The position numbers were made by a program, and so were the translations under genes. Shown here one piece after another: positions 1,792-61,079 of a stretch of 64,000 nt of DNA. The stretch lies in contig CABOHA010000001.1 in the NCBI GenBank assembly GCA_902399975.1, positions 10,338 through 74,337 of the forward strand. Reading direction: 5' to 3'. The notes under the pieces are model-generated. The model saw nothing but the letters and a program-made list of their open reading frames with translations, made no database searches and was not told the DNA's origin. This DNA comes from Coriobacteriaceae bacterium. Its GTDB lineage: Bacteria > Actinomycetota > Coriobacteriia > Coriobacteriales > Coriobacteriaceae. How positions within the stretch are numbered: the first letter of the stretch is position 1; each line of letters begins with the position of its first letter.

Positions 1792-1922
1792 GTGTGGCCC
1801 CGGCGGGCCGGGCATTAAGTTTGCTGCTCTACAGTCCTGCGCAAGACGAAGGCCACATTAAGTGGCCTTCTTTGCGTGCGGAACTCGCGACAAACTTAAT
1901 GCCCGGCCGGCCGGGGCCACAC
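1792..1922. repeat. Palindromic element, copy 1 of constant-core family A
   Basis: The left arm at 1792–1823 and the right arm at 1891–1922 are reverse complements over 32 bp with one mismatch. The 67-bp centre contains a second hairpin (AAGGCCAC / GTGGCCTT, followed by TCTTT) that could act as a terminator for the upstream gene, whose stop codon is only 5 bp away. A 59-bp part of the centre, starting at CAGTCCTGCGC, is identical to the centre of the element at 19720–19855. The arms of the two elements share no evident sequence. Confidence 0.9.
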
Positions 1923-1966
1923 GGCACTTTGTAGATGGCGGCTCGCTTTTCGGAACTGGGCTGATG

Positions 1967-2105
1967 TGGGACGGTGGGATTCCGCGTCCGCCTTTTCGGC
2001 GGCCGCGCCCCGCTGTGTCGCTTCGCTCCTTGCGTGCTGCGCTAGAAAACGCTTCGCGTTTCCTCAGCTCCGCACCCTTGCGGGTTCGAATCTCTCCGCT
2101 TGCCC
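1967..2105. repeat. tRNA-adjacent element bounded by T-arm-like ends, copy 1
   Basis: The left end at 1967–1982 (TGGGACGGTGGGATTC) closely resembles the 3' end of the adjacent minus-strand tRNA-Gln as read on the plus strand. The right end at 2082–2098 is a T-arm-like sequence in the opposite orientation (GGGTTCGAATCTCTCCG); its reverse complement resembles the same region of tRNA-Gln. Between them lies a hairpin (AAACGC TTC GCGTTT, 2047–2061). The element at 46383–46522 beside tRNA-Leu has the same layout and a similar centre. It is not a complete tRNA gene. Confidence 0.65.
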
Positions 2106-2144
2106 ACAAGAAAGCGCCCTGGGCCGTTATGGGCTCAGGGCGCT
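2106..2144 (-). terminator. Rho-independent terminator of tRNA-Gln
   Basis: A 9-bp stem AGCGCCCTG / CAGGGCGCT is followed on the minus strand by TTCTT. It lies directly downstream of tRNA-Gln. Confidence 0.75.
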
Positions 2145-2153
2145 CAGTTTTAA

Positions 2154-2228
2154 TGGCTGGGACGGAGGGATTCGAACCCCCAACAGCCGGCACCAAAAAC
2201 CGGAGTTCTACCGTTGAACTACGTCCCA
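2154..2228 (-). tRNA. tRNA-Gln (UUG)
   Basis: The minus strand folds as a complete tRNA. The acceptor stem pairs TGGGACG with CGTCCCA and is followed by an encoded GCCA end. The D-arm is GTTC/GAAC. The anticodon stem CCGGT/GCCGG carries loop TTTTGGT, giving anticodon TTG. The T-arm is GGGGGTTCGAATCCC. Length is 75 nt including CCA. Confidence 0.95.
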
Positions 2229-2266
2229 ATGTGTGGTGTTGCCCAAAAGCAACTCGTCTAGTTTAC

Positions 2267-3172
2267 CTAATCTGCGAGGGCATCGCAAACGCCGTCGAGT
2301 AGGCGTACGGCGAGCGTCTGCGCGTCGCTGGCCGTGAAGGTGCCGTTGTAGCGCGTCATGCCCGTGAGCTCAATGCGAATGCGAGCCGGCTTCTGCTGCG
2401 CGGCGACATTGGCGGTGCGGATGCGCTGGGCCAGGTTGTGGCACTCGGCGAGGGCAATCGTGGCGCGTGGCGCGGCGTCGGCGGGCAGCTCGTCGCTTGC
2501 GATCTCGAGCACCAGGTCAACGTCGGTTGGGACCTCGGAGTCGCAGAGCATCATGCCGCTGTTGTCGGTCGTTGCCGTGGCGATGTTCCACATGCGCGAA
2601 GCAACGCTGCGTGCGATGGGGTCCTCACCGATAACGGCGATCTGGAAGCGCTCGAGCACGTTGGCGGCGCGAGCAAAACCGATGCGGGACTCGGCTTCGG
2701 TGACCGAGGGCTTGCCCTCCCACACATGGTGCAGGCGGTTGATGTAGGCGTAGGTGTCCTGGAAGGCCATGCCGTCGGCAAACAGGCCGACATTTTCCTG
2801 GAACTGCTGCAGGGCGGCCTCGGTATGCGGACCAAAGTAGCCGTCGTCCTCGCCGCAGGCAAAGCCCAAAACGTTGAGAGCGCGCTGCAGGGCCTGCACA
2901 TCGGCGCCATGGAAATTGGGCATGCGCAGATACAGAGTGCGGTCGCCCAGCTTATACGAGGCGTCGACCAGGGCGCTCCAACAGGAGATATCGACGGCAT
3001 GACCGGCAGCAAGGCCGCTGTCGAGCCTGAAGGTGCTGACGGCCTGCTCGGTGGTGGTGCCAAAGCGCTTGTCGACAACCTCGGCGCCATCGATTGTATA
3101 GCCGAGCTGCAGAAGGCGGGACTGGACGTCCTCGACGGCTGCTCCCTGCATGCCCGTGGTAATAGGTTCCAT
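2267..3172 (-). CDS. Tandem peptidoglycan-binding domain protein
   Basis: This 301-residue protein has no obvious signal peptide. Two PG_binding_1-type domains stand in tandem. The first is about residues 8–70, with a DVQSRLLQLGY helix and RFGTTTEQAVSTFR. The second is about 88–145, with ADVQALQRALNVLGF and GYFGPHTEAALQQFQ. The order of two such domains before a larger C-terminal region recalls the actinobacterial amidase-like regulator CwlM, but the C-terminal part (about 170–301) shows none of the zinc-binding residues of an Amidase_3 enzyme. A non-catalytic cell-wall sensing or scaffold role is therefore an inference. The start ATG is preceded by a strong ribosome site (AAAGGGG). Confidence 0.7.
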   Translation of the reverse strand: MEPITTGMQGAAVEDVQSRLLQLGYTIDGAEVVDKRFGTTTEQAVSTFRLDSGLAAGHAVDISCWSALVDASYKLGDRTLYLRMPNFHGADVQALQRALNVLGFACGEDDGYFGPHTEAALQQFQENVGLFADGMAFQDTYAYINRLHHVWEGKPSVTEAESRIGFARAANVLERFQIAVIGEDPIARSVASRMWNIATATTDNSGMMLCDSEVPTDVDLVLEIASDELPADAAPRATIALAECHNLAQRIRTANVAAQQKPARIRIELTGMTRYNGTFTASDAQTLAVRLLDGVCDALAD

Positions 3173-3311
3173 GAACGAACCCCTTTCGGCGTACCATTCG
3201 TACTATTTTGAGCGTGTGTCGGATAGACAACGCGAGACAATTTATAAACATGCACTCAATAGTGTAGCAACTTGTACCCAAACTCGCTGCCCACAGGTTT
3301 TATGACCCCCG

Positions 3312-4337
3312 CTAGTTAAGGCGCTCCACAAAGAAATCTGCCATTGAGAGGAAGAGCTCGCGCGCATGCGGGTCGAGCTCGACGCCTTCGATAGCGGCCT
3401 TGGCCTTGGCGGTCAGGTCGAGCGCATAGGTGTGGGCGTAATCGATGGAGCCGGTCTCCTGGAAGATCTCCACGGCGCGTGCGAGCTGCGCAGGGTCCTC
3501 GGTGCCCGAGGAAAGGATTGCCTCGATCTCGTCGTGATAGCGCTCGTCTGACAGGGCATGCACGGCAACGAGGGTGCGCTTGCCCTCGGTGATATCGGTG
3601 CGGAAGTCCTTGTTGGCGGCCTCCTTGGTGCCGATCAAGTTGAGCAGGTCGTCTTGAATCTGGAAGGCAAGGCCCGTGTGCAGCCCAAAGGCGCGCAGTG
3701 CCTCAATCTGCTCTTCGCTGCCGCCGCCGATAATGGCTCCGGCGGCAAGCGGCGTCGCTCCGCTGTAGTACGCGGTCTTGTGCGTCGCCATGTCCAGATA
3801 ATCGTCGACCGAAATGTCAAAGCGCCCGTCGCGGACCCAGCCCAGGTCGAGCGCCTGGCCCTCGATGGTACGGACGATCATCTCGGTAAGCTCGTGGAGC
3901 ACGCGAAGCTTCACGTCTGCGTTGAGTGTGGGGTCGTCGAGAACCGTCTTGGTGACCATGGTGAGCGCCAGGTCACCGCAGTTGATGGCAAGACCGGTGC
4001 CCTCGGTAAGGTGCATGCAGGGCTTGCCGCGACGAATCTGCCCGTTGTCGGCGATGTCGTCGTGGATGAGTGCGCCCGACTGAAAGTGCTCGATGGCCGC
4101 CGCTGCGCTGCGGGCGCTCTCAAAGCTGCCGCCTACCGCAGTGGCGGCGAGCATGCAGATGAGCGGGCGGTGGCGCTTGCCAGCGTTTGCCGTAAATGCC
4201 GAGAGCGGGGTATACAGGTAGCGCTCGATATCGGCGGAAGTCGCCTGTCCGTCAAAGAACGTGGCCAGATAGTCGTTAATCTGGTCAAAGTGCTGGGCTA
4301 AAAAGCTGGTAAACGGACTGGACACGGGTTCTCGCAT
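3312..4337 (-). CDS. Polyprenyl diphosphate synthase
   Basis: A 341-residue trans-prenyltransferase that condenses isopentenyl diphosphate onto an allylic primer to make chains for quinones or lipid carriers. The family motifs are clear: GKRHRPLICML near residue 55, the first Asp-rich motif HDDIADNGQIRRG near residue 90, and the second Asp-rich motif FQIQDDLLNLIG near residue 227 (DDxxN rather than DDxxD). Product chain length cannot be read reliably from sequence; geranylgeranyl to heptaprenyl are all possible. The gene stands alone on the minus strand, about 115 bp downstream of the end of the PTS fusion gene. The start is not preceded by a strong Shine-Dalgarno, so a downstream GTG is possible. 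Confidence 0.85.
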   Translation of the reverse strand: MREPVSSPFTSFLAQHFDQINDYLATFFDGQATSADIERYLYTPLSAFTANAGKRHRPLICMLAATAVGGSFESARSAAAAIEHFQSGALIHDDIADNGQIRRGKPCMHLTEGTGLAINCGDLALTMVTKTVLDDPTLNADVKLRVLHELTEMIVRTIEGQALDLGWVRDGRFDISVDDYLDMATHKTAYYSGATPLAAGAIIGGGSEEQIEALRAFGLHTGLAFQIQDDLLNLIGTKEAANKDFRTDITEGKRTLVAVHALSDERYHDEIEAILSSGTEDPAQLARAVEIFQETGSIDYAHTYALDLTAKAKAAIEGVELDPHARELFLSMADFFVERLN

Positions 4338-4452
4338 TCTTTGATAGGTTGCATCGTTGCATTATGCAGACAACATATTGCCACATTAGGGCGTCGAGCG
4401 CGGCGGTTGAAGACGATTGGTCCATGCGGCCGCAAGTGCGGTAGGGGCTTGG

Positions 4453-6903
4453 CTAGATAAGCCCAAAGTGTTCGAGCGCGGTGACGACGCCGTCGTGGTC
4501 GATGCTGTCGGTGACATAGTCGGCCTTTTCCTTGAGGAAGTCCGGTGCGTTGCCCATGGCGATGCCAACGTCGACGGCGTTCATCAGCGAGACGTCATTG
4601 CTGGCGTCGCCGATGCCGTATACGGTTCCGTGGTGGGGATCGAGGGCGTCGAGTACGGACTGGATACCCTCGCGCTTGGTGCATTCGCGAGGCGAAATCT
4701 CGGTCACTTCGAGCTCGAGCTCGTTAAAGCAGAGCAGCGGCTCAAACGCTTGATCCTGAGCGATGCGGTTGGCAAGCGACGTGGACATTAAGATCTTGTA
4801 GGCGCTGTAATGTTGCAGCTGCGTAATTGCATCGCCCACGGTGCGGGCGTATCCTGGGGCGTCGGGCGCATCGGCACTCATGCGAACGACGCCATTGAGT
4901 CCCTCAAAACGAATCACTTCGTCCGATTGCTCAAGAATGGGAGCAAGGCGCTGCAGCATGCCGGGCGTCATCGCCAAATCGCGAATCACGTGTCCCTCAA
5001 GTTCGACATAGCCACCCGCGAGGCAGACGATGCCGGTCCAGGGCAGCTCGAGCAGCTTTGGATGGATGCAGCTCAGCGTGCGCCCTGTGCAGATAAACGC
5101 CATATTGCCCTTGGCGACAAAATCACGGATGGCTTGCGAGACCGCTTCATTGGGATAGGGGGAGAGGTCTCGCTCGCTCTCGGGAAGTTCTTGTGCCACT
5201 CGAGGGTCTTGCCAGGCGAGTGTTCCGTCGATATCGAAGAAGCAGATATCGCCGCGCTTATGGGCTGCGCTGGCGGCAGGGGAGGCCGAGGTGGTGGGCA
5301 CAAATCCCGGCTCGAGGCCCATGATCTGGTCAAAATGCTCTTTAACGCGGGGAACGGAGATGCCAATAATCACCTGGGCGGTCTTGCCCGTAATGATGAG
5401 GCCCTTGGCGCCCACCGCGACAAACGACGCATTATCTGCAACGATGGAAGGGTCTGCGACCTCGACGCGCAGGCGCGTGGCGCAGTTGGTTGCGCCCACG
5501 ATATTGCCAACGCCACCTAAAAGCTGAATTACCCGCTCGGCGAGGACGTGATCTTGATCGGATTGAATACTGACCTCGCCATTGGGAGATTGCTCTTTGG
5601 CAAAGCCGCTTCCCGTTAAACGATCGATTGCCGCGCGATTGGAGACATGATCCTCGCGGCCCGGCGTCTTAAGGTCATAGACCAAGATGAGTGCTCGAAA
5701 ACTAACAAAAAAGATGAGGCTAAAGGCAAGACCGATACCGAGCGCCAAAAGGTAGGAGCCGGCATGCATTCGCATGAGTGGGATGAAGTTGAAGGCCGTC
5801 ATTTCCATGAGACCGCCCGAGAAGATGCCGACGATGCCAAAGAAGTTCATGGTCATGGCAAGGCAGGAGGACAGGACGGCGTAGAGCAAAAAGAGTCCGG
5901 GATAGGTGAACATAAAGAGAAACTCGAGCGGCTCGGTGACGCCGCAGACCACCGAGGCGACGATGGCGGGCAAAAGGATGACCTTAAGGCCGGCGCGGCG
6001 TTCGGGTTTGGCGGTGAAATAGAATGCTGCCGCGATGGCGGGAAGGCCAAAGAGCTTGCCCCAGCCGGTGGCGGTAAAACCTGCCCAGGGCGCAAGTTCA
6101 TTTAAAGGGCGCGTGCTATGGGAGAGAATGGGGAGCAGGTTGGTCCACGTGGCGTAAATACCGTCGTGAATGACCAGATTGTCGTAATAGATGGGCATAT
6201 AGAGCAGATGGTGCAGCCCCATGGGCTCGAGCGCTCGCTCCAAAAACACAAAGATGCCCACGCCGAAGGGGCCGACGCCCGCAAGTGCGTGGCGCAGCGT
6301 TTCGGTCACAGCGTATGCGAAGGGCACGATGGCGGCCGAGATGGCGGCAAGGGCAAACACGGCAAAAAAGCTGATGAGGTAGACCAGCGAGGAACCCGAG
6401 AAGGTGCCGAGCCAATCGGGAACCTTGGCATCGTAGAAGCGGTCATGGATGGCGACGACGGTTGCCGATACCGCCAGCGGGCCGATAATGCCGGTATCGA
6501 GCGTCTTGATGCCGTCGATGACGGTGATACCGCTGGCGGGGGTCAAAGACGACGGGTACTTAAGCCCAAGGTTGTCTCCGCTCAGCTTAATGATCTCGCT
6601 CAAAAAGAAGCAATAGGCAAAATAGGCCACGAGTGCCTCGAGGCAGCAGCGTGCCGGTTGCTTTTGGGCAAGACCGATAGGCAGCGCTACGGCAAAAAGG
6701 AGCGGGAGACGTTTAAAGACCGTCCACGAGCCGCGCTGGATGATGGTCCAGAAAACGTACCAAGGGGTTCCGTATACGGCGAGGTCGCCGACGATGTCTA
6801 CGGTCGTGGCGAGGGCGGAGATACCGACCATGAGGCCTGATATAGAAAACAGCATGGCGGGCGCGAACGTTGCCCCGCCAAAGCGTTGGATTTTTTGCAG
6901 CAT
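4453..6903 (-). CDS. Alpha-glucoside-type PTS IICB permease fused to a HAD (Cof-type) phosphatase
   Basis: One continuous 816-residue frame holds three modules. A glucose/maltose-family EIIC (about 1–410, multiple membrane segments; IQRFGGATFAPAMLF at the start and CGVTEPLEFLFMF later) imports the sugar. An EIIB domain (about 455–530) carries the phosphorylation cysteine, Cys474, in ATNCATRLRV. A Cof-like HAD phosphatase (about 550–816) has FFDIDGT (Asp557/Asp559), ICTGRT and GDASNDVSLMNAV. No EIIA domain is present, so a separate EIIA is needed. I start at the second ATG, which has GAGAGG upstream and aligns with usual EIIC starts; an upstream ATG at 6921 adds six residues. The fusion implies that imported sugar phosphate is dephosphorylated at the membrane, with maltose 6'-phosphate a plausible substrate given MalQ and glycogen phosphorylase nearby. 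The substrate is inferred. It diverges from the GntR regulator. Confidence 0.85.
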   Translation of the reverse strand: MLQKIQRFGGATFAPAMLFSISGLMVGISALATTVDIVGDLAVYGTPWYVFWTIIQRGSWTVFKRLPLLFAVALPIGLAQKQPARCCLEALVAYFAYCFFLSEIIKLSGDNLGLKYPSSLTPASGITVIDGIKTLDTGIIGPLAVSATVVAIHDRFYDAKVPDWLGTFSGSSLVYLISFFAVFALAAISAAIVPFAYAVTETLRHALAGVGPFGVGIFVFLERALEPMGLHHLLYMPIYYDNLVIHDGIYATWTNLLPILSHSTRPLNELAPWAGFTATGWGKLFGLPAIAAAFYFTAKPERRAGLKVILLPAIVASVVCGVTEPLEFLFMFTYPGLFLLYAVLSSCLAMTMNFFGIVGIFSGGLMEMTAFNFIPLMRMHAGSYLLALGIGLAFSLIFFVSFRALILVYDLKTPGREDHVSNRAAIDRLTGSGFAKEQSPNGEVSIQSDQDHVLAERVIQLLGGVGNIVGATNCATRLRVEVADPSIVADNASFVAVGAKGLIITGKTAQVIIGISVPRVKEHFDQIMGLEPGFVPTTSASPAASAAHKRGDICFFDIDGTLAWQDPRVAQELPESERDLSPYPNEAVSQAIRDFVAKGNMAFICTGRTLSCIHPKLLELPWTGIVCLAGGYVELEGHVIRDLAMTPGMLQRLAPILEQSDEVIRFEGLNGVVRMSADAPDAPGYARTVGDAITQLQHYSAYKILMSTSLANRIAQDQAFEPLLCFNELELEVTEISPRECTKREGIQSVLDALDPHHGTVYGIGDASNDVSLMNAVDVGIAMGNAPDFLKEKADYVTDSIDHDGVVTALEHFGLI

Positions 6904-7850: not shown

Positions 7851-7891
7851 CCGGCTAGCTCGCAGCCTGACGAGACTCATGCCCTCAAAGC

Positions 7892-9560: not shown

Positions 9561-10415
9561 ATGGGCAAAGCACTCAAGCGCTGGTGGCCGCTCTTTATGC
9601 TGCCCACGTGCCTGGCGTTTATGATCGGGTTCGTGATTCCCTTTATCCAGGGTTTCTATCTCTCGTTCTGCCAGTTTATTACCATCAATAACGCGCACTT
9701 TGTCGGTATCGAGAACTACGTGCGCGCGCTGTCCGATCCGCAGTTCTCCACGTCGTTCTTCTTTACCGTGGCGTTTGCCTTCCTGTCGACGGTGCTCATC
9801 AACGTGATCGCGCTGGCCATTGCGCAGGCGCTCACTCGCAAGGCGCTCAAGGGCACCAACATCTTCCGTACGATTTTCTTTATGCCTAACCTGATTGGCG
9901 GCATTGTACTGGGTTACATTTGGCAGATTCTGATCAACTGCCTGCTCTCCAACGTGGGTGCCCAGCTTATCGCCCTCAACTCCGCCGCTGGCTTCTGGGG
10001 CCTTATCATCCTGACCCTGTGGCAACAGGTCGGCTACATGATGATCATCTACATCGCCGGTCTGCAGTCCATTCCGTCCGACTACATCGAGGCCGCCAAG
10101 GTCGATGGCGCTACGGCATGGCAGACGTTTTGGAAGGTTAAGATCCCCAACCTGATGCCGACCATCACCATCTGCCTGTTCCTGTCCATCACCAACGGCT
10201 TTAAGCTGTTCGACCAGAACCTCGCCCTTACCGGTGGCGCCCCGGCGCACTCCACCGAGATGCTCGCCCTGAACATCTACAACACGTTCTATTCGCGTGC
10301 TGGCATCGCATGGCAGGGCATCGGTCAGGCCAAGGCAGTTATCTTCTGCATCCTGGTTGTCGCTATTTCTATGATCCAGCTTAAGGCCACGAGGTCCAAG
10401 GAGGTGCAGCAGTAA
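9561..10415 (+). CDS. ABC sugar permease, MalF/UgpA type
   Basis: 284-residue inner-membrane permease with about six transmembrane helices. The cytoplasmic EAA loop that contacts the ATPase reads EAAKVDGATAWQTFWKVKIPNLMP near residues 178–201. It lacks the long periplasmic P2 loop of enteric MalF, as expected for the Gram-positive oligosaccharide subfamily. The ribosome site GAAAGGA precedes the ATG. Its last base overlaps the ATG of the next permease (TAATG), so the two are translationally coupled and should form a heterodimer. Confidence 0.9.
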   Translation: MGKALKRWWPLFMLPTCLAFMIGFVIPFIQGFYLSFCQFITINNAHFVGIENYVRALSDPQFSTSFFFTVAFAFLSTVLINVIALAIAQALTRKALKGTNIFRTIFFMPNLIGGIVLGYIWQILINCLLSNVGAQLIALNSAAGFWGLIILTLWQQVGYMMIIYIAGLQSIPSDYIEAAKVDGATAWQTFWKVKIPNLMPTITICLFLSITNGFKLFDQNLALTGGAPAHSTEMLALNIYNTFYSRAGIAWQGIGQAKAVIFCILVVAISMIQLKATRSKEVQQ

Positions 10416-11254
10416 TGAAACGCGATAAGGCTATTAACCGCGCGCTCTCGATCTTCTTTACGATCCTGTCGCTCGCATGGATCTACCCCGTGTTCATGAT
10501 TGCGCTCAATTCCTTTAAGAAGGGGACCGCAATCAGCACCACCACGGCGTTCGATCTGCTCACGCCCGAGACGTTCAACGGCCTCGCAAACTACGTGCAC
10601 GCTCTGAACGAGCAGGGCTTTGCCTCGGCGTTTATGTATTCGCTCATCATCACGGTCACGTCGGTCGTGCTGATTCTGGTGTGCTGCTCCATGTGCGCCT
10701 GGTACGTGGTGCGCGTCAATAACAAGATCTCGAACTTCTTCTATTACCTGTTCGTGTTCTCGATGGTCGTGCCGTTCCAGATGCTGATGTTCACGCTGTC
10801 CAATTTGGCGGACCGCATCGGCTTTAACACGCCGTTCAACATCTGCTTTATCTATCTGGGCTTTGGCGCGGGTCTGGCGGTCTTTATGTTCGCCGGCTTT
10901 GTAAAGAACATCCCGCTCGAGATTGAGGAGGCGGCCATGATCGACGGCTGCAACCCGGTCCAGGTGTTCTTTAAGATTGTCCTTCCCATCATGAAGCCCA
11001 CCTATCTTTCGGTTGGCATCCTCGAGACCATGTGGGTCTGGAACGACTACCTGCTGCCCTACCTCACCCTTGACTCCACCAAGTACAAGACCATTCCTAT
11101 CTTGATCCAGTACTTCCGTGGCGGCTATGGCCACGTCGAGCTCGGCCCCATGATGGCCTGCATCATGATGGTCGTTGTCCCCATCGTCATCATGTACATC
11201 TTCTGCCAGAAGTACATCATCGACGGCGTGGTGGCAGGTGCCGTCAAGGGCTGA
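10415..11254 (+). CDS. ABC sugar permease, MalG/UgpE type
   Basis: 279-residue second permease subunit with about six hydrophobic helices. The EAA-type motif is EIEEAAMIDGCNPVQVFFKIVLP near residue 169, and the ending DGVVAGAVKG is typical of MalG relatives. The ATG overlaps the upstream permease stop by one base. It pairs with the preceding MalF-type protein and the downstream MsmK-type ATPase to import an oligosaccharide, probably maltodextrin. Confidence 0.9.
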   Translation: MKRDKAINRALSIFFTILSLAWIYPVFMIALNSFKKGTAISTTTAFDLLTPETFNGLANYVHALNEQGFASAFMYSLIITVTSVVLILVCCSMCAWYVVRVNNKISNFFYYLFVFSMVVPFQMLMFTLSNLADRIGFNTPFNICFIYLGFGAGLAVFMFAGFVKNIPLEIEEAAMIDGCNPVQVFFKIVLPIMKPTYLSVGILETMWVWNDYLLPYLTLDSTKYKTIPILIQYFRGGYGHVELGPMMACIMMVVVPIVIMYIFCQKYIIDGVVAGAVKG

Positions 11255-12636: not shown

Positions 12637-12660
12637 GTTGGGGTTGTCCATCTGTCAGTT

Positions 12661-12960
12661 TGTCTTGATCTGTAACAGGAGGAGGGCCAAATTGGGCCTA
12701 GGTGTTACAAGTTGAGATGTTGTTGAGCTGCCCGTCCTTCCATCTCAATCCGTAACACGAGAGGCTGATTTCGACAGTTACCTGTTACAGATTGAGATTG
12801 TTTTAGCGGCCTTGCCCGTCTGTCTCGTTCTGTAACAGGTAGACCCGATTCCAGCGGTTATCTGTTACAGATTGAGACAGTTCATCGGGACAATTCTGTT
12901 TGTCTTGATCTGTAACAGATAGACCCAATTTTGCCGGTTAGGTGTTACAGATCGAGATTG
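12661..12960. repeat. Four-unit tandem array of palindromes with exact 80-bp period
   Basis: Units begin at 12661, 12741, 12821 and 12901. Each has a left arm of the form TCTyrwTCTGTAACAG and a right arm of the form CTGTTACAGATTGAGA about 40 bp later (right arms at 12703, 12783, 12863 and 12943), so each unit can fold back on itself. The loop between the arms and the spacer between units vary in sequence while spacing is kept exactly. The array fills the 350-bp gap between convergent importer and glycogen phosphorylase genes. There are no spacers of CRISPR type and no coding potential. Confidence 0.9.
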
Positions 12961-12995
12961 TTTGGTCGAGGTGGGCCACGGGCAACACGCAGGCA

Positions 12996-18505: not shown

Positions 18506-19711
18506 ATGTCACCAAACAGCGATTCCATCCTTTCCCAGGAGCTCTCGCGCCGCACTGCCCTTAAGGCCCTGTTCGGCGCCGCTTCTGCGGCAGTTCTTTT
18601 TGGCCTGCCCACTCGCGCCCATGCGGCGGAGGCTTCCAAAGAAACCACCGATAAATTGAATGCCGCCCAGGCCCAACTCGACGAGGTTCAGGCCCAGCTC
18701 GACAGCATCGCAAATGAGTATGCGGCGCTGGCCAACAAGAATGCCCAGACCCTCAACGACATCGAGAATGTCCAGGGCAAGATTGACGACACGCAGGCCC
18801 AGATCGATGAAAAGAAGGCCGAGCTCAAGAAGAAGCGCAACGACCTTTCCGATCGCGTGGCCGCCAGCTACAAGTCCGGCGGTACGAACATCCTGTCGCT
18901 GCTGCTGGCCTCTGGCTCGTTTGAGGAACTCGTCGCCAACGCGCATTACGTTGAGAAGATCAACAAGAGCGACCGCGATGCCATCGAGGATATCCAGACG
19001 ATTCAGGCTGAGCTCGACGCGCAGAAGACCGAGCTCGAAGCACAAAAGGCCAACCTGGAGAAACTCAAGGACCAGCAGACGGCTCAGATGCAGGATATGC
19101 AGGCCAAGCAGCAAGAAGTCCAGACCGTGCTGAACGGTCTTTCCGACGACGTCAAGGAGCTCATGGCTCAGCGCGATTCCGAGATTCTCGCTGCCGCCCA
19201 GGCCGAGGAGGCCGCTAGGAAGGCCGCCGCTGCCGCGGCCGCCGCGAACAAGAACAATTCCTACTCGGGTGGTTCGAGCTCGGGCGGTGGATCGTATGCG
19301 CCCGGAACTCCGCAGCAGAATGCCGGCTCGGGCAAGCAGCAGGCCGTCGTCAACGCGTGCTACTCCACGCCTTCGCCGGGTCAGAACTGGTGCGCGGCGT
19401 GGGTTACCAATGTCTTCCGCAATGCCGGCGTGGGCTATTTTGGCGGCAACGCGTGTGACATGTTCAACGCCTGGTGCTATAGCTCCGACCGCTCGGCGCT
19501 GCAGGTGGGCATGATCGTGGCCGATTCCTCGCACAGCGGCACGGGTGCTCCGGGCCTTATCTACGGTCATGTGGGTATCTACGTTGGCGGCGGCATCGTA
19601 ATGAGCAACGAGGGCGCCATTACGTCTAAGTCGCTTGATTCGTTCATTAGCTTTTATGGTACTGGCTCTGGCGTGCGTTGGGGCTGGCTTGGCGGTATTG
19701 CGCTGTCGTAA
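18506..19711 (+). CDS. Secreted coiled-coil peptidoglycan hydrolase (PcsB-like, CHAP/NlpC-type)
   Basis: 401 residues. The N-terminus has SRRTALKALFGAASAAVLFG with Arg15–Arg16 and a THAHAA-like cleavage region near residue 40, suggesting Tat export. Residues about 44–235 form a long coiled coil rich in Gln, Lys and Glu, like PcsB or FtsX-regulated hydrolases. A Gly/Ser linker (about 250–275) leads to a C-terminal cysteine-peptidase-like domain with WCAAWVTNVF (Cys296) and GHVGIYVGGG (His355) as likely catalytic residues. It probably splits daughter-cell wall. The ribosome site ACGGAG precedes the ATG. Immediately after the stop is a family A palindromic element. Confidence 0.85.
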   Translation: MSPNSDSILSQELSRRTALKALFGAASAAVLFGLPTRAHAAEASKETTDKLNAAQAQLDEVQAQLDSIANEYAALANKNAQTLNDIENVQGKIDDTQAQIDEKKAELKKKRNDLSDRVAASYKSGGTNILSLLLASGSFEELVANAHYVEKINKSDRDAIEDIQTIQAELDAQKTELEAQKANLEKLKDQQTAQMQDMQAKQQEVQTVLNGLSDDVKELMAQRDSEILAAAQAEEAARKAAAAAAAANKNNSYSGGSSSGGGSYAPGTPQQNAGSGKQQAVVNACYSTPSPGQNWCAAWVTNVFRNAGVGYFGGNACDMFNAWCYSSDRSALQVGMIVADSSHSGTGAPGLIYGHVGIYVGGGIVMSNEGAITSKSLDSFISFYGTGSGVRWGWLGGIALS

Positions 19712-19719
19712 AGCCGACT

Positions 19720-19855
19720 GGGCCGCGTGCCCGCCCGCAATATATTTGATTGCCTGCTCGGGCAGTCCTGCGCAAGACGAAGGCCACATTAAGTGGCCTT
19801 CTTTGCGTGCGGAACTCGCGATCAATCAAATATATTGCGGGCGGGCACGCGGCCC
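19720..19855. repeat. Palindromic element, copy 2 of constant-core family A
   Basis: The left arm 19720–19752 and right arm 19823–19855 are perfect 33-bp reverse complements. The centre (19753–19822) contains the same 59-bp sequence as the element at 1792–1922, including the AAGGCCAC / GTGGCCTT hairpin. The arms are unrelated to those of copy 1. It starts 9 bp after the hydrolase stop codon. Confidence 0.92.
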
Positions 19856-19907
19856 TCTCGGGTTCGGGGCGCTACGCACCGGATTGGTTGTCTGAATAAA
19901 AGAAAGT

Positions 19908-24853: not shown

Positions 24854-24963
24854 GACGGTCTCGCGCTGGGGCCTTGCCCGGCGGGGTGGCTTTGTCTGGG
24901 GAAGTGGGCTTCGCGAACTTCCCCAGACAAAGCCACCCCGCCGGGCAAGGCCCTCTCGACCGT
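24854..24963. repeat. Palindromic element, copy 1 of constant-loop family B
   Basis: The arms 24869–24905 and 24917–24953 are perfect 37-bp reverse complements around the 11-nt loop GGGCTTCGCGA. An outer ACGGTC / GACCGT pair (24855–24860, 24958–24963) extends the stem. The central 19 bp AAGTGGGCTTCGCGAACTT recurs, inverted, in the element at 25061–25139. It lies just after the phosphoketolase stop. Confidence 0.9.
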
Positions 24964-25060: not shown

Positions 25061-25139
25061 GCCGGGGCTGGGGCGCCTGCTTTGTTTTGAGAAGTTCGCG
25101 AAGCCCACTTCTCAAAACAAAGCACGCCTCCCCGGCCCT
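25061..25139. repeat. Palindromic element, copy 2 of constant-loop family B (inverted)
   Basis: Perfect 18-bp inner arms (25078–25095 and 25107–25124) with imperfectly paired GC-rich outer arms. The central 19 bp is the exact reverse complement of the centre of the element at 24854–24963, while the arms differ. The 96-bp stretch between the two elements has no gene. Confidence 0.85.
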
Positions 25140-25317
25140 CGTCTGTAAACTCTTCCGCTGAGCGAGCGGGAGCTCGGACGTTTTTTCGGATGGACTGTCG
25201 ATGCCCTTCGCTGTAGAGGCGGGCCGCGGGCAATCCGCTCCAATGTTTCCAAATGAATACGGTGTGAGCGGCTGCGACGGATTTTCCCCGCAAGCACTCT
25301 AGTATGCTAAAGTACCC

Positions 25318-28641: not shown

Positions 28642-28642
28642 T

Positions 28643-32659: not shown

Positions 32660-32759
32660 GGCTTGCCCAGGCGCCCGACCTTCCGGCTCCAACCCTCCTC
32701 GCGTACTTTAAGTACGCGTCGTCGGGCTGTCGCTCGGAATCTCGGGCACCTGGACAGCC
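32660..32759. repeat. Palindromic element, copy 1 of family C
   Basis: Outer arms 32660–32678 and 32742–32759 pair (GCCCGA at the inside, CCAGG / CCTGG further out). A middle TTCCG / CGGAA pair and a central GCGTACTTTAAGTACGC hairpin (32701–32717) complete the fold. The element at 60981–61079 has the same layout with different but complementary bases in the arms. Confidence 0.8.
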
Positions 32760-32795
32760 CTCGACGACCTGCGAAGTTTGAATTTGGGGAGAGAA

Positions 32796-34740: not shown

Positions 34741-34836
34741 GTGCGGCCTCGCTCTAAAATGTGTACGTCAGCCTCCAAAAGCTGCAAAAAATGACATGTT
34801 TGGAGGCTGACGTACACGTTTGAGACGAGGGCGAGG
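34741..34836. repeat. Palindrome, copy 1 of family D (downstream end of the ygbA–ABC operon)
   Basis: A perfect 19-bp inner stem GTGTACGTCAGCCTCCAAA (34761–34779) with its complement at 34799–34817, enclosing a 19-nt loop that ends in AAAAAATGACATG. Weaker outer pairing (GCCTCGCTC / GAGACGAGGGC) extends it. The near-identical copy is at 39050–39145. Confidence 0.88.
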
Positions 34837-39049: not shown

Positions 39050-39145
39050 GCGGCCCGCTCCAAAACGTGTACGTCAGCCTCCAAAACCGACAAAAAATGA
39101 CATGTTTGGAGGCTGACGTACATGTTTGGATAGGGGCAAGGGCGA
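39050..39145. repeat. Palindrome, copy 2 of family D (upstream end of the ABC–ygbA operon)
   Basis: An 18-bp inner stem (39068–39085 with 39105–39122) identical to the copy at 34741–34836. The loop differs only at its first bases. Outer arms differ between copies but remain roughly complementary. Confidence 0.88.
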
Positions 39146-44662: not shown

Positions 44663-44729
44663 AGTTGCGGTGAAATGCGGACTAAAATCGCCCTTTCGGG
44701 CCCCAACCAGTCCCTATTCCACCGCAACT
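44663..44729. repeat. Palindromic element, copy 1 of family E
   Basis: Arms 44663–44683 and 44709–44729 share AGTTGCGGTG / CACCGCAACT at the outside. Inner bases GGACT / AGTCC differ from, and are paired like, those of the copy at 46246–46312. Lies downstream of ppx and of the ATPase gene. Confidence 0.8.
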
Positions 44730-46245: not shown

Positions 46246-46312
46246 AGTTGCGGTGAAAAAGTTCTTAAATGAGCTGGTAACCAGTCAAAACAGGAACTAT
46301 TCCACCGCAACT
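46246..46312. repeat. Palindromic element, copy 2 of family E
   Basis: Arms 46246–46266 and 46292–46312 share the outer AGTTGCGGTG stem with copy 1. Inner bases GTTCTT / AGGAAC pair with each other and differ from copy 1. Confidence 0.8.
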
Positions 46313-48247: not shown

Positions 48248-48435
48248 AATCGAAGGTGAATGCTTTTCCGCGAAGTGAACGAGTGAAATCGAGCCCCTGA
48301 AGCATCGACACTTTTACGTCGCTCTTTCCTGCGGTTTTGTCAGGTATTTCCTGCGGTTTTGGCGCCAAAAAGTGCGGATGCTTCGGGGGTCCAAAATAGG
48401 TCGCTCACTTCGCGGAAAAGCATTCACCTTCGATT
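48248..48435. repeat. Large palindromic element, copy 1 of family F
   Basis: Outer arms 48248–48282 and 48401–48435 pair over 34 of 35 positions. An inner stem pairs GAAGCATC with GATGCTTC, and the centre holds two TTTCCTGCGGTTTT repeats. The element at 53124–53309 has the same architecture and conserved centre with compensating changes in the arms. Confidence 0.9.
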
Positions 48436-52995: not shown

Positions 52996-53123
52996 ATCTG
53001 GATTCCTTTCTCATCAGGAAACATGTCTCATTATAGGCATGCCTGCGGTCGTAGCGGCTAGGGGCGCCAGTGCTAGTGAGGGTTCCAGAGAAGGAAGCGG
53101 CGCACCCTCGGGGCAGTAAAGAA

Positions 53124-53309
53124 TCAAGGTCTAATACTTTTCCCGAGAAGTGAACGAGCTAAAACGGACCCCCGAAGCATCGACGCTTTGAGAGTGCCGT
53201 TTCCTGCGGTTTCGGTACTGAAATCCTGCGATTTTGCCGTCGAAAAATGTGGATGCTTCAGGGGTCCAAAAACAGCCGTTCACTTCTCGGGAAAAGTATT
53301 AGACCTCGA
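53124..53309. repeat. Large palindromic element, copy 2 of family F
   Basis: Outer arms 53124–53156 and 53277–53309 pair over 32 of 33 positions. The centre shares GAAGCATCGAC, TTTCCTGCGGTTT and GGATGCTTC with the copy at 48248–48435. Arm bases differ between copies but are matched within each. The remaining sequence of this gap (52996–53123 and 53310–53473) shows no gene. Confidence 0.9.
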
Positions 53310-53473
53310 TAGCGGGGAGGGGGATGGGATGCCGGTGCAAAACGGCGTCAAGGGTTGGTCGAGCAGGTGGTTTCTCCATTGATGTCCGCACGACATGTGA
53401 CACTTTTCTTGTCGCCCTGCTCTGCCGCCGCGGCGTGCATCTGAACAACGACCCTCTAAGGAGTTCGATATTG

Positions 53474-55897: not shown

Positions 55898-55945
55898 GTC
55901 CCAGATTGCCGGCAGATAAGGAACGTCCCCAGGTGCCGGCGGCGG
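55898..55945. repeat. REP-like repeat (inverted copy)
   Basis: Contains AAGGAACGTCCCCAGGTGCCGGC and an upstream TGCCGGCA, the reverse complement pattern of the 44735–44785 repeat. Confidence 0.6.
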
Positions 55946-56053
55946 GCGTGACTTTTGTCCCGTTTTGACGCTCCGCTGACCTAGATGTTCGTCACATGAA
56001 CTCGCAAACGTGGGACAATGACGCTACTGGTACCACAGACAAAGGATGTGCCT

Positions 56054-58000
56054 ATGAACGCCCCCGTTGCCCAGCCCTGTCGGCAGCGCCGCCTGTTTGC
56101 GCGGTTCGCTTCCGTCTGCGCACTCGTCGCGCTTGCGTTGTTGCTGCTGCCTGCCGTCGCGCACGCCGACGGCTACTCCATGAGCCAAACCTATATCGGT
56201 GCCACGGTTGAGGCCGATGGCTCGCTGACCGTTGTCGAGGGACGCCAGTTCGATTTCGACGATGACATTAACGGCGTGTATTGGGATATCAATACAGGCT
56301 CTAACCAGCAAGGCGGCTCGGTGGTCGTCAATGTGCTGAGCGTCGAGGAAGACGACACTGCGTTTAACAAGGTCGACAGCGCAAATAAAGGCGACGACGG
56401 CGTTTACACGGTGGAGCAGTCCGACGACGGCGTAAAGATTAAGGTGTTCAGCCCTCACGAGAGCGGCGACAGCGCAATCTACTACGTGAGTTATTCCATG
56501 ACCGGTGCGGTTATGAACTGGGCCGATACCGCCGAGCTCTACTGGAAATTTGTGGGTGACGGCTGGTCTGCGGACTCCGATGACGTCGAGATGGAAGTCT
56601 ACTTTGCAAATGCCGCTGCCGGGACGGCTGCCGTCAAGGGCGATAACTTCCGCGCATGGGGCCACGGCCCACTGACGGGCGACGTGTCGCTCGATGCGGA
56701 CGAGCCCATGGTCACCTATACCATTCCCTGCGTGCATGAGGGCGAATTCGCCGAGGCACGCATCGCCTTCCCCAGCGACTGGGTGCCGCAGCTTGCCGTC
56801 TCGGGCGAAAAGCGCATGTCGACGATCCTGAGCGAAGAGAAGGAATGGGCCGACGAGGCCAACGCTCGCCGTGAGCACGCGCGTGCGGTTGCCGGCGCGA
56901 TTGCCGTGGTGTGTGTTGTCGTGGCGGTTGCCTATACCGGTGTGATCGTGATGCTTAAGCTGCGCAGGCCCAAGCCCAAGCCGCTCTTCCAGGACGAGTA
57001 CTTCCGCGATGTGCCCTCGGCCGACCATCCCGCTGTGCTTGCAGCTCTCATGAGCTGGAACGACGTGCCCGATCAGGCATATATCGCCACGCTTATGAAG
57101 CTCACCGACGACCGCGTGATCAAGCTGGAAGAAGCGACCGAGACCAAGAAGAAGGGTCTGCTCCGTCGCGAAAAAGAGGAGCAGACGTATCGCATCACAG
57201 TGACCGACGAGGCCTGGAAGGCTGCCAAGAAGGACGGCATCGATCGCGATGTGCTCAAGGTCTTCTTCGCCGGCGTTAAGCCCGATAAGGACGGAGTCCG
57301 TTCGCGCACGTTTAGCGAGCTGGAGGAGTACGCTAGCGAGCGCACCACATCTGTTGGCGACAAGCTCGAGGACTATCAGAGCACGGTTAAGGGCAAGCTG
57401 GAGGCGCGCGAGTTTATCGCCTCGGACGGCACCATCGCCCTGGTTGCCGGCTTGGTTCTCGGCATCATCATTGTCTTTGGCATTCTGGGCTCTCTGATCT
57501 ATACCGACTTTGCGGACGCCAACGTCGGTGCCGCTATGATCTCGATCCCCGTCACGATCGTGGGCTTTGTCCTGAGCTGCACCTTCCGCCGCTACACGCC
57601 GGAGGGCGCCGAGGTGGCGGCTCGCTGCAAGGCGCTCAAGCATTGGCTCGAGGACTTTACGCGTCTGAAGGAGGCCGTCCCCAGCGACCTGATCTTGTGG
57701 AACAAACTGCTGGTGATGGGCGTTGCCCTGGGCGTTTCGAAAGAAGTGCTGCGACAGCTGGCCGAGGCCGTGCCTGCGGACCTGCGCAACAGCGACGATT
57801 TCTACGACAACTACCCCTGCTACTGGTGGTATTACCATCACTACGGCAACGAGTCCCCGCTCGATTCGTTCAACGATGTGTACCACGAGACCATCCACGA
57901 GCTGGCTTCGAGTTCCGATAGTTCGAGCGGCGGCAGCGGCGGCGGCTTTTCCGGTGGCGGCGGTGGCGGCGTCGGCGGAGGCGGCGGCGGAACGTTCTAG
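56054..58000 (+). CDS. DUF2207 membrane protein with Gly-rich tail
   Basis: 648 residues. A signal peptide (ALVALALLLLPAVAHA, cleavage near 36) precedes an extracytoplasmic DUF2207 beta domain (about 40–270; YIGATVEADGSLTVVEGRQFDF, AELYWKFVGDGW). A transmembrane helix (AGAIAVVCVVVAVAYTGVIVML, about 280–302) leads to a cytoplasmic domain with FFAGVKPDK, then a pair of hydrophobic helices (IALVAGLVLGIIIVFGILGSLIY, about 470–492, and a second one after) and a C-terminal domain. The last residues are GGGFSGGGGGGVGGGGGGTF, a tail common to this family. Function unknown, often cell-envelope linked. AAAGGATG precedes the ATG. Confidence 0.88.
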   Translation: MNAPVAQPCRQRRLFARFASVCALVALALLLLPAVAHADGYSMSQTYIGATVEADGSLTVVEGRQFDFDDDINGVYWDINTGSNQQGGSVVVNVLSVEEDDTAFNKVDSANKGDDGVYTVEQSDDGVKIKVFSPHESGDSAIYYVSYSMTGAVMNWADTAELYWKFVGDGWSADSDDVEMEVYFANAAAGTAAVKGDNFRAWGHGPLTGDVSLDADEPMVTYTIPCVHEGEFAEARIAFPSDWVPQLAVSGEKRMSTILSEEKEWADEANARREHARAVAGAIAVVCVVVAVAYTGVIVMLKLRRPKPKPLFQDEYFRDVPSADHPAVLAALMSWNDVPDQAYIATLMKLTDDRVIKLEEATETKKKGLLRREKEEQTYRITVTDEAWKAAKKDGIDRDVLKVFFAGVKPDKDGVRSRTFSELEEYASERTTSVGDKLEDYQSTVKGKLEAREFIASDGTIALVAGLVLGIIIVFGILGSLIYTDFADANVGAAMISIPVTIVGFVLSCTFRRYTPEGAEVAARCKALKHWLEDFTRLKEAVPSDLILWNKLLVMGVALGVSKEVLRQLAEAVPADLRNSDDFYDNYPCYWWYYHHYGNESPLDSFNDVYHETIHELASSSDSSSGGSGGGFSGGGGGGVGGGGGGTF

Positions 58001-58118
58001 CGAGCGCTTGCTTTGGGGTGGATCTTTCTGGGCGGTTGCCAGGGAAGATTCATCCCATTTTTGTGCATCGAAACGGGTCAAACTTTCCGCTGAGGACCTT
58101 CGCACAAGGGGCAGTGGA

Positions 58119-58340
58119 CAAAAAATACCAAATATGAGTACTGTTGCTGCGTTGGTCACATATGTTTGCACATAATAATGGGCTCCTAATGAGAGTACTC
58201 CTCGTTAGGAGCCCATTTTATTGAACATTTGGGGAGTTACGTCAGCTCGTGCAGCTGGTCGTCATGCCTATAAGCATCAAAAATGCCCCGAATCGCTGCT
58301 ACTAAAAAGGTAACAGTACTCATATTTGATGTATTTTGAC
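58119..58340. repeat. Long inverted repeat enclosing a terminator
   Basis: CAAATATGAGTACTGTT (58131–58147) and its complement AACAGTACTCATATTTG (58308–58324) are extended by weaker outer matches (GGACAAAAAATAC / GTATTTTGACC). The enclosed 160 bp contains the terminator at 58177 and no gene. Confidence 0.75.
58177..58221. terminator. Bidirectional terminator
   Basis: Perfect 13-bp stem AATGGGCTCCTAA / TTAGGAGCCCATT followed by TTTATT; lies between the convergent DUF2207 and GNAT genes. Confidence 0.8.
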
Positions 58341-58369
58341 CACGGCTATCTACAAACCCCCTAGGCCAC

Positions 58370-58438
58370 TCATTGGGGACAGACTTAAATGACTAGTTGT
58401 TGGGGATCAGTCATTGGGGACGTTCTTAAATGACTAGG
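58370..58438. repeat. Tandem REP-like units (TCATTGGGGAC…AAATGACTAG)
   Basis: Two units, CATTGGGGACAGACTTAAATGACTAG and CATTGGGGACGTTCTTAAATGACTAG in form, related to the single copy at 33692–33722. Each can pair CTAGTCATT with AAATGACTAG. Confidence 0.7.
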
Positions 58439-58452
58439 TGTGGCTGCTTGGG

Positions 58453-59094
58453 CTAGGCTGTTAGGTCGAGTTCGTAGAGAAAGCTTTCGCGCGGCATGTC
58501 GTGACGACGCTCTTCGCGGTTGGCGCGGTGCGTGGCCGTGCGCTTAAAGCCGTGCAACTCGTAGAACTTCCACGAGCAGTTGGAGTCGGTGTACAGGTGC
58601 GCCCTTGTCGCCCCGCGCGAGGACAGATACGAGACCGCGGCATCGAGCAACACTGAGCCTACACCCAGGCCGTGGACATCGGGATCGACGGCGAGCAGCG
58701 TGACTTCGTTGTCGTGCGGCAACGGGCTGCTCTCGAGCAGGCGGTTGTTGGTTCGGATGGTTGCGCGCACAAACGAGAGATACTCGGCGCAGACATCGGG
58801 CTCCAGCTCGCGCATCTGCGAAAGCAGCGCGCGTTCGGTATCCATCCAGTGTTCCTTAACGGTGGCGCCGGAACTCTGTCCCGCGCGCGCGAGCGCAATG
58901 CCACGCGCCTGACCGTCGATTACGGCAACCTGCGAAAACGTCGATGACGAAAGGCAATGGGCGAGGTCGCACGCGGCCTCGAGGCGGTTGTACTCATCGT
59001 TATCCGAATTGTTATGCCAAAGCTGCTGCAGAATCAGCGCGATGGCGTCGAAGTCTTCGGTATCAAACGGTCGGTAGAGAACCCGCGAGACCAT
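58453..59094 (-). CDS. GNAT-family N-acetyltransferase
   Basis: 213 residues. The acetyl-CoA site is VTLLAVDPDVHGLGVGSVLLDAAVSYL (about 127–153), followed by ATRAHLYTDSNCSWKFYELHGFKRTAT, the usual strand 6–helix 4 region. The N-terminal half carries a longer helical segment than small GNATs. Substrate unknown. AAAGAGG precedes the ATG. Confidence 0.88.
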   Translation of the reverse strand: MVSRVLYRPFDTEDFDAIALILQQLWHNNSDNDEYNRLEAACDLAHCLSSSTFSQVAVIDGQARGIALARAGQSSGATVKEHWMDTERALLSQMRELEPDVCAEYLSFVRATIRTNNRLLESSPLPHDNEVTLLAVDPDVHGLGVGSVLLDAAVSYLSSRGATRAHLYTDSNCSWKFYELHGFKRTATHRANREERRHDMPRESFLYELDLTA

Positions 59095-59371
59095 GGTGCC
59101 TCTTTCTTTTGCGGATGCATATCGAGCACAGTTCTACCACGCTATTGGCATCTAATTATGGTGCCCCTGTGTTCCATGAACTCACCGTGCCCGGTGCCGT
59201 GCCCATCCCCTCTGCTCGCAAACTTTTTCTGCACATGCGCCCGTTGCGGGGTGCATCGATGCGCTCGATGCGCTACATTGAATCAGTATTTTCAATGCCG
59301 CTGCGCGAGCGCTGCAGATCGACGTATCACCGACTCACAGAGCACGGCGGCGTACCAGACAGGAGGACTGC

Positions 59372-60979
59372 ATGGGATCTGATGTGAAGATCGCGCGCGC
59401 GTTGATCTCGGTTACCGATAAGACGGGCGTCGTCGATTTCGCACGGACGCTGGTCGATGACTTTGGCGTCGAGATCATCTCTACGGGCGGCACGGCTCGT
59501 GCCATCGAGGACGCGGGCGTTCCCGTAACCCCCATCGAGGAGTTCACGGGCTATCCCGAGATGATGGACGGCCGCGTTAAGACCCTGCACCCCAAGGTTC
59601 ACGGCGCGCTGCTGGCCCGCCGCGATTCCGAGCAGCACATGCAGGAGGCCGCCCAGCACGGCATTAAGCTGATCGACCTGGTCGTCGTCAACCTGTACGA
59701 GTTCGAGAAGACCGTCGCCAACCCCGAGGTCACCTTTGCGGATGCCATCGAGCACATCGACATCGGTGGCCCCTCCATGTTGCGCTCTGCCGCCAAGAAC
59801 GCCGCGAGCGTTACCGTCATCTCCGACCCGGCCGACTATGATGCCGTCCTGGCCGAGATGCGCGAGACCGGTGGCTGCACCACGCTTGCCACCCGTCGTC
59901 GCCTGCAGGTGAAGGTCTACCAGACCACCGCCGCCTACGACACGGCTATCTCCCGTTGGCTTGCCGCCCAGGCAAGCGACGTGGCGGACACCTCTGCCAA
60001 GCTCGAGATTTCGCTGGAGAAGGTCGACGACCTGCGCTATGGTGAGAATCCTCAGCAAAAGGCTACGGTCTACCGCTTTGCCGAGGGCTGCGAGAACACC
60101 GCGAGCTCTCAGTTCCCGCTTGTGGGCTCCGAGCAGATCCAGGGCAAGCCGCTCAGCTACAACAACTATCTGGACGCCGATGCCGCCTGGAACCTGGTCC
60201 GCGAGTTCGACGAGCCGGCCTGCGTGATCCTCAAGCATCAGAACCCCTGCGGTTCCGCCGTTGCCGAGGACATCACGGCCGCCTACGACCGCGCTTTCGC
60301 CTGCGATCCCAAGAGCGCCTTCGGCGGCATCATCGCCTGCAACCGCGAGGTTCCCTTTGAGCTGGTTGAGCACTTTGCCGATCAGAACAAGCAGTTCGTC
60401 GAGGTCATCATCGCCCCGAGCTATACCGCCGAGGCGCTCGAGCGCATGGCCAAGCGCCCCAACCTGCGCGTGCTGGCTACCGGCGGCGTGGACCACGGTG
60501 CCCAAGTGGAGCTGCGCTCCATCGACGGCGGCATGCTGGTGCAGGAAGTCGACCACGTGACCGAGGATCCCGCGACCTTTACGTTCCCCACCGACCGCAA
60601 GCCCACCGATGCCGAAATGGCCGAGCTCGAGTTTGCCTGGAAGGTCTGCAAGGGCGTCAAGTCCAATGCTATCCTGGTCTCCAAGGGCAAGGCCGGCATT
60701 GGCATGGGCCCGGGTCAGCCTAACCGCGTTGACTCTGCACTGCTTGCCTGCGAGCGTGCCGAGGACTTCTGCGAGCGCGAGGGCGTGGAGAAGGGCGGCT
60801 TTGCTTGCGCAAGCGACGCGTTCTTCCCGTTCCGCGACAACGTCGACGTGCTTGCCGCGCACGGCGTGACCTGCATCATCCAGCCCGGCGGCTCCAAGCG
60901 TGACGACGAGAGCATCCAGGCCTGCAACGAGCATGGTATTGCGATGGTCTTCACCGGAGCCAGGCATTTTAGGCACTAG
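59372..60979 (+). CDS. purH: Bifunctional AICAR transformylase / IMP cyclohydrolase
   Basis: 535 residues. The N-terminal MGS-like cyclohydrolase (about 1–200) has [30 protein letters not shown] and [22 protein letters not shown]. The C-terminal transformylase (about 200–535) has [48 protein letters not shown] with the catalytic Lys-His pair in KHQNPCG, and [12 protein letters not shown] near the end. It carries out the last two steps of IMP synthesis. GGAGGA precedes the ATG. A family C palindrome starts 2 bp after the stop. Confidence 0.97.
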
Positions 60980-60980
60980 A

Positions 60981-61079
60981 GGCTTTCCCAAGCACCCGAC
61001 CTTGCCCCTCAAACCGTCGCTTGCGTACATTTAGTACGCGGCGCTCCTCTTTCGGGGCAATCTCGGGCACTTGGAAAAC
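60981..61079. repeat. Palindromic element, copy 2 of family C
   Basis: Outer arms 60981–60999 and 61062–61079 pair (CCCAAGCACCCGA with TCGGGCACTTGG). An inner TTGCCCC / GGGGCAA pair and the central GCGTACATTTAGTACGC hairpin match the layout of the 32660–32759 copy with compensating base changes. Confidence 0.8.

Follow-up and report, generated by a model that had tools for sequence, protein, structure and literature searches.

We describe a dispersed hairpin-forming element, family A, which was recognized in a stretch of 64,000 nucleotides (nt) of contig CABOHA010000001.1 (the window) and is found across the class Coriobacteriia, with particular abundance in the order Coriobacteriales, where Collinsella is placed. 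Family A consists of a conserved centre of about 65 nt flanked by pairing arms, mostly of 30-42 base pairs (bp), which differ from site to site yet pair almost perfectly. Copies lie preferentially right behind stop codons, in one orientation, and differences between orthologous sites are mostly mirrored in the two arms. We propose, with a probability of about 0.5, that A is a fixed-core post-stop hairpin whose arms stay complementary through fold-back template switching.

The window (61% G+C), judged by its relatives, is assigned to Collinsella, aerofaciens group; the nearest genome among those examined, G001, has 44% of sampled 31-mers in common with it. An initial annotation of the window had listed twelve palindromic elements in six families (A to F), and every one of them is present at, or a few bases from, the position it reported. 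Family A is represented as follows.

1786 to 1928, plus strand: A1, arms at about 1791-1823 and 1891-1923 around the conserved centre.
1832 to 1890, plus strand: A1 centre, constant, its 59 nt recurring unchanged in A2; it contains an inner hairpin and the internal-loop motif CAGTCCTG...TGCGGAACT.
19711 to 19864, plus strand: A2, arms at 19720-19752 and 19823-19855.

Between A1 and A2 the 59-nt centre is 100% identical and the arms are unrelated. Among 108 distinct Collinsella alleles, with arms ranging from 18 to 52 bp, pairing is free of any mismatch or gap in 44 and has a single one in 23 (67/108 with at most one).

Arms evidently change together. Ungapped comparison of orthologous sites (79 allele pairs) gave 207 mirrored differences against 51 confined to the left and 61 confined to the right arm, so that changes at several sites mirrored in both arms, the feature looked for as a sign of template switching, are present in A. 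In records L002 and L310 the 250 nt upstream are identical, the arms differ mostly at mirrored positions and pairing is almost perfect. In an alignment of 27 A copies, 12 of 14 arm pairs vary on both sides and 96.8% of the cells pair. Moreover, arm identity drops in jumps as the upstream 250 bp diverge (by edit distance). Right arms less than 70% identical were seen in 0/41 pairs with upstream identity of at least 99%, in 5/68 at 97-99% (one of the five involving L120, a rearranged copy), 4/83 at 95-97%, 47/171 at 90-95%, where median core identity is 0.94, and 18/33 at 85-90%.

The copy in L120 (minus strand, 4195) combines a left arm known from one site with a right arm known from the inverted copy next to that site, owing either to rearrangement between head-to-head A copies or to an assembly error. 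Head-to-head inverted A pairs with 208-232 nt between cores occur in L001, L007, L029, L031, L032, L051, L098, L104, L110, L147, L162, L168, L211 and L215; further inverted pairs in L003, L027 and L327 have 154, 479 and 119 nt between cores.

The centre follows the same rule. It is built from paired blocks, of which the outer one comes in three types and the inner stem in five, and 13 matched combinations of these are seen. Only one of 106 parsed alleles is mismatched in type in the outer block and one of 106 in the inner block, two alleles being unparsed. Matched combinations of this sort are expected if blocks are exchanged or copied while the hairpin is folded.

On our reading, new sequence arising on one arm would be transferred to the other when the DNA is in its hairpin form, presumably by fold-back template switching during replication. 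Because copying would happen within the folded hairpin, arms and paired centre blocks would both be rewritten as mirror images, often at many sites at once; the pattern itself is what we observe, its cause what we infer. The core CAGTCCTG...TGCGGAACT is probably read as a folded hairpin by a putative factor that chooses the post-stop position or spreads the element. A wider version, in which self-rewriting hairpins have their core read as hairpin DNA by a putative factor of Coriobacteriia that places them behind stops, and in which stem tips and arms undergo exchange or copying within the folded hairpin so that every copy comes to have well-paired arms of its own, is tentative and in our judgement rather doubtful. 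If true, the self-rewriting hairpin would be a kind of genetic element whose identity lies in its fixed internal loop, with stems that are mirrored and otherwise arbitrary. The initial annotation had offered three roles (transcript 3' ends, mobile palindromes driven in trans, products of template switching), and given the mirrored changes, the rarity of block mismatches and the lack of a G.U excess described below, the third fits best.

Several observations weigh against fold-back copying as the whole explanation. One-sided differences make up 112 of the 319, the 79 allele pairs share ancestry, and both alleles of a pair needed at least 24 of 30 symmetric arm positions, which favours mirrored differences. 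The eight rare variants of the outer block comprise four one-sided substitutions, two one-base insertions and only two two-sided changes. Hybrid alleles, with left and right arms from different known alleles, exist, which means that ordinary recombination through the A centre also occurs; arm segments are common to different loci somewhat more than in shuffles, and recombination between alleles accounts for some of the arm jumps. Mismatches climb outward along the arm (10, 18, 18, 26, 43 and 78 per 5 bp in 103 elements), a trend confounded by arms shorter than 30 bp, as it also is in the 88 elements with at most four mismatches (6, 15, 9, 17, 8 and 29). In left arms G and T outweigh C and A (G.385, C.277, T.214, A.124 in 38 Collinsella loci) and exceed 50% G+T in 30/38 Collinsella loci and 28/46 loci of other genera; this bias resembles the G-C/U-A asymmetry of RNA stems, and RNA-level selection is therefore possible. 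Finally, template switching does not explain the post-stop position.

That position is a strong trait. The initial annotation had named two outcomes that would speak against its pattern, namely rarity of copies elsewhere in the genome and a placement like that of random intergenic sites; A copies turned out to be common, and their placement is post-stop, orientation-specific and far from random. Statistics were collected in 864 kilobases (kb), comprising the window and two 400-kb stretches from genomes G003 and G024, where a covariance model of the A centre, built from 27 sequences, found 21 forward copies. Nineteen of these entered the placement test, among them orthologous-looking sites in G003 and G024. 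Thirteen of the 19 start at most 45 nt after a same-strand stop and none does when flipped; over 2000 random intergenic placements the count averaged 1.07 and never exceeded 5. Genes were called by our own codon-based caller, which makes some wrong calls, and the control used identical calls; the two window copies count at -11 and -1, since their aligned arms extend across the stop codon.

From six genomes of other genera we drew 60 stretches, and filtering by motif and arms left 47 elements. With open reading frames (ORFs) of at least 150 codons, 36/47 lie at most 60 nt after a same-strand stop, against 0 flipped and 6.0 at random; with ORFs of at least 90 codons the values are 37/47, 11 and 8.7. 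The 20 distinct copies of G001, from 24 entries of which four were duplicates due to overlapping loci, gave 11 post-stop, 2 flipped and 1.4 random at 150 codons, and 12, 5 and 2.8 at 90 codons. The C-termini encoded upstream of A copies belong, as we presume from inspection, to varied housekeeping proteins.

Family A is widespread. G001 has 24 matches to the A centre, and at least one match occurs in 35 of the 43 Collinsella genomes examined; a pattern scan for the centre returned at least 120 stretches, and the 80 listed are all Collinsella, many of them C. aerofaciens. The covariance model matched 61/65 genomes of the family and, at an E-value of 1e-3, 157/296 genomes of the class; its match counts are inflated, as a palindrome often matches both strands. 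In a draw from the phylum at 1e-8, 14/296 genomes matched, all in three families of Collinsella's order, of which the draw contained few members. Copies inspected elsewhere in the order, outside Collinsella, share the core, each with arms of its own. Five genomes of other orders in the class draw (L417-L421) have best matches of 1.8e-12 to 3.2e-9. Their copies contain AGTCCT...GCGGAACT exactly in 2/5 and with substitutions in 3/5, have long complementary arms in all cases and, with the element start set at a fixed distance from the centre, start in 5/5 some 0-6 nt downstream of an ORF that runs in the same direction and has 278-495 codons, the C-termini of these ORFs being different. These copies imply that the A element is older than the order, within which it is numerous. 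Genomes of other orders carry one or a few A elements immediately behind unrelated genes, and such single copies might give a clue to what A originally did.

Family A bears on the question of whether long stems are kept paired by slow compensatory mutation or by one-step template switching, and preserves an unusual trace, left in nature, of the way hairpins in DNA may copy themselves. With some 20 copies per genome, in many related species and often at shared sites, it amounts to a natural replicate experiment. It is, besides, a dispersed feature of common gut bacteria with no Rfam match, whose one-orientation link to stop codons calls for a recognizing factor or a function.

Family A could be a non-autonomous mobile palindrome with a post-stop preference, moved by a hairpin-recognizing transposase after the logic of REP/REPIN or IS200/IS605 elements, which we hold to be possible but not probable. 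Occupied and empty alleles do exist, at one site: L098 and L110 carry the hairpin there, and L116, L207, L094, L079 and L170 do not, the direction of change being unpolarised. The empty site lacks the whole hairpin, both arms and centre. Few sites are common to the genomes compared (across genera only four upstream-ORF pairs, from three site pairs), placement is in one orientation, and Y1 transposases occur in 37/43 genomes of the genus. On the other hand, none of the 30 Y1-transposase loci examined, taken from a longer list of matches and with flanks of up to 1.5 kb, has an A match, no split or autonomous A copy with DNA inside was present in 2,477,100 bases examined, and neither search revealed a mobilising gene for A. 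Furthermore, 145 of 156 A copies fall in flank clusters of at least two, so most examined sites are shared, and no donor arm was recognised for the hairpin of the occupied site. The mobile role put forward in the initial annotation thus keeps weak support from the occupied and empty site and from the few sites common between genera, and lacks its driver. No viral contig matched the A or B patterns, nor did any phage, and among plasmids one 0.9-Mb C. aerofaciens record has 10 places.

A RAYT was considered as the driver of A and rejected: a few Y1 loci have other small palindromes nearby, including one E-like match, and none of the 30 examined has an A match. Loci L291 and L294, where a Y1-transposase gene is accompanied by several matches to another palindrome (cluster c31), are a possible Collinsella RAYT/REP system. 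Two A sites are incomplete. At the A1-equivalent site of G003 (L211, about 10122-10473) the left half of A is replaced by other hairpin-rich sequence and the right half is kept, and at L154 (about 3762-3838) A has shrunk to outer-arm remnants, likely by internal deletion of the palindrome.

Alternatively, A could act as a structured RNA within the 3' portion of mRNAs, serving for instance 3'-end protection or termination, with arms covarying through selected compensatory mutation. The arms covary strongly, the internal loop is conserved across genera and orders, and the elements follow stops in sense orientation. In the left arm G-C and T-A pairs exceed C-G and A-T, an asymmetry reported for RNA stems in the available part of PMC8794818, which however derives it, with its excess of G and U in the 5' arm, from intrastrand template switching with G-U intermediates. 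A selected stem in the sense RNA should show more G.U than A.C mismatches. In alleles with at most four mismatches, Collinsella arms have 25 G.T and 29 A.C (p 0.68), and other genera 8 and 22 (p 0.016), opposite to that expectation. Without a sense-strand G.U excess, the symmetry is more likely due to hairpin fold-back copying at the DNA level than to selection on transcripts. Many mirrored arm differences beside identical upstream DNA (L002/L310), the absence of a T run after the hairpin in 105/108 alleles and the lack of an Rfam family also count against an RNA structure, which we consider unlikely as the main cause. Taken together, mismatch pattern and left-arm composition favour DNA-level copying, with an RNA role still possible.

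Another possible source of the mirrored jumps is homologous recombination that replaces a whole hairpin with an allele from another strain or locus, with no special fold-back. Besides the hybrid alleles and shared arm segments, this would suit the five pairs (one of them the rearranged L120) with arms below 70% identity beside upstream DNA 97-99% identical. Both exchange points would nevertheless have to mirror each other every time, yet block mismatches are rare (1/106 per block), and the origin of new symmetric arms is left unexplained; we regard replacement as a distinctly improbable general cause. In a test for captured sequence, 47/93 arms had matches outside masked A copies against 9/93 shuffled arms; among the 25 matches listed, many are near full-length, close to sequence ends and probably unmasked A copies.

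That A elements are intrinsic transcription terminators is most improbable, for although they follow stops and the inner hairpin precedes TTTGCG in some alleles, GGCTCG or TGTTCG takes the place of that T stretch in others, the outer hairpin is followed by at least 6 T in 8 nt in 3/108 alleles and at least 5 in 19/108, and a separate hairpin of terminator form lies, by inspection, downstream of the occupied/empty site in both states. Of the transcript 3'-end role suggested initially, the position therefore survives and intrinsic termination does not.

The other elements of the window are given below.

24869 to 24953, plus strand: B1, perfect 37-bp hairpin with 11-nt loop GGGCTTCGCGA.
25061 to 25142, minus strand: B2, B1 loop in opposite orientation, other arms, 32 bp with 27 matched.
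32660 to 32763, plus strand: C1, behind a His_biosynth-family gene, 6 nt from its stop codon.
60981 to 61083, plus strand: C2, behind an AICARFT/IMPCHase gene, 1 nt from its stop codon, with changes from C1 that are mirrored.
34753 to 34825, unstranded: D1, palindrome with nearly constant arms.
39063 to 39127, unstranded: D2, second copy of family D.
44663 to 44729, unstranded: E1, outer arms constant, inner part variable.
46246 to 46312, unstranded: E2, second copy of family E.
48248 to 48435, unstranded: F1, long palindrome, mostly conserved, middle variable.
53123 to 53310, unstranded: F2, second copy of family F.

By our own gene calls, A1 begins 4 nt after the stop of the co-directional gene 3-1787, A2 8 nt after that of gene 18506-19711, B1 12 nt and E1 13 nt after a stop codon. 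The distances first reported for the two A copies, the two C copies and E1 (5, 9, 7, 2 and 14) reflect inclusive counting and agree with ours (4, 8, 6, 1 and 13). B2, D1, D2, E2, F1 and F2 have no stop codon close on their left; the gene to the right of F1 ends 14 nt away. Gene 3-1787 (plus strand) has a weak, sub-cut-off match to JetD_C, the C-terminal domain of Wadjet JetD; gene 18506-19711 matches the PcsB coiled coil and, below cut-off, CHAP.

A fixed inner sequence with matched outer arms had initially been ascribed to all six families; it holds for A and B, in C only the mirrored changes stand, and D, E and F do not conform. B fits the rule of A, its 11-nt loop being constant bar one base in one of nine distinct copies while the arms differ. 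C keeps outer and inner motifs, and its short stem blocks change in mirrored fashion (10 non-redundant copies), so that B and C bear the same mark of mirrored change as A. D has nearly constant arms, its window copies being 92% identical (6 non-redundant copies). E is the opposite of A, with near-constant outer arms AGTTGCGGTGRAATA/TATTCCACCGCAACT and a varying inner part (12 shown of 16 non-redundant copies), and F is conserved over most of its length with a variable middle (12 shown of 14).

A mechanical scan of the window for strong hairpins yielded eight, A1, A2, B1, B2, D1, D2, F1 and F2, and the same strict-score scan of five dinucleotide shuffles of the window yielded none. The A, B, D and F elements fold into long, nearly perfect stems; those of C and E fold less perfectly. 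The 400-kb stretches of G003 and G024 contain 55 and 59 strong hairpins, of which eight in total form one rRNA-associated cluster overlapping 5S genes. In the 864 kb, minus-strand TCCGCA...AGGAC between complementary arms picked out 18 A matches and three copies in two further palindrome families, with no match in reversed sequence. One of these two families, found once in G003 and once in G024, likewise combines a nearly constant centre with arms that differ. The G003 and G024 stretches (L206-L245) also carry further palindrome families (GGGGACAGACTTAAATG, GGGGACGTTCCTTAA, ACAAGTTGGCATG, CAAAACTATGCCGG) and elements of about 200 nt with TGGACAGTTAGTTCAGATACGTAT ends and differing middles. Window positions 12655-12962 hold a tandem array of units of about 80 bp whose palindromic motifs are of the CTGTAACAG type, and both G003 and G024 have hairpins related to it.

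An Rfam search of the window returned two tRNAs and no family for any element. At E-values up to 1, seven element loci gave one tRNA and, all below cut-off, matches to microRNA precursors and one small RNA. No description of these elements was found in the open-access PMC literature searched.

ERIC, BIME and other enterobacterial repeats are likewise intergenic and palindromic and often lie in transcribed 3' regions; their arms are conserved in sequence, unlike those of A. REP/REPIN sequences with their RAYTs, as far as the available parts of PMC3116915 and PMC3733652 go, resemble A as small dispersed intergenic hairpins with compensatory changes, and family E is laid out like a REPIN, with constant outer parts around an inner part that varies and pairs. 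In A, by contrast, the centre is constant and the outer arms vary over 18-52 bp, against REP stems of 5-13 bp (PMC3733652). Where REPs have a short conserved stem in hundreds of copies, A has about 20 copies per genome and variable arms; a GTAG/CGTC tag lies within 6 nt outside the hairpin at only 4 of 216 A ends (108 alleles), and no Y1-transposase gene is linked (0/30 loci). The perfect inverted repeats of Nematomorpha mitochondria (PMC6649704) are long, as in A, but lie inside mitochondrial protein-coding genes, and a constant centre is not noted in the available part of that source. Hairpins maintained by template switching, according to the available parts of PMC8794818 and PMC7202029, come close to A in that multi-site mirrored changes keep stems paired in one event; those papers deal with rRNA and other RNA genes, whereas A is a dispersed family with arm turnover within a genus. 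We regard A as an interspersed palindrome of a new variant.

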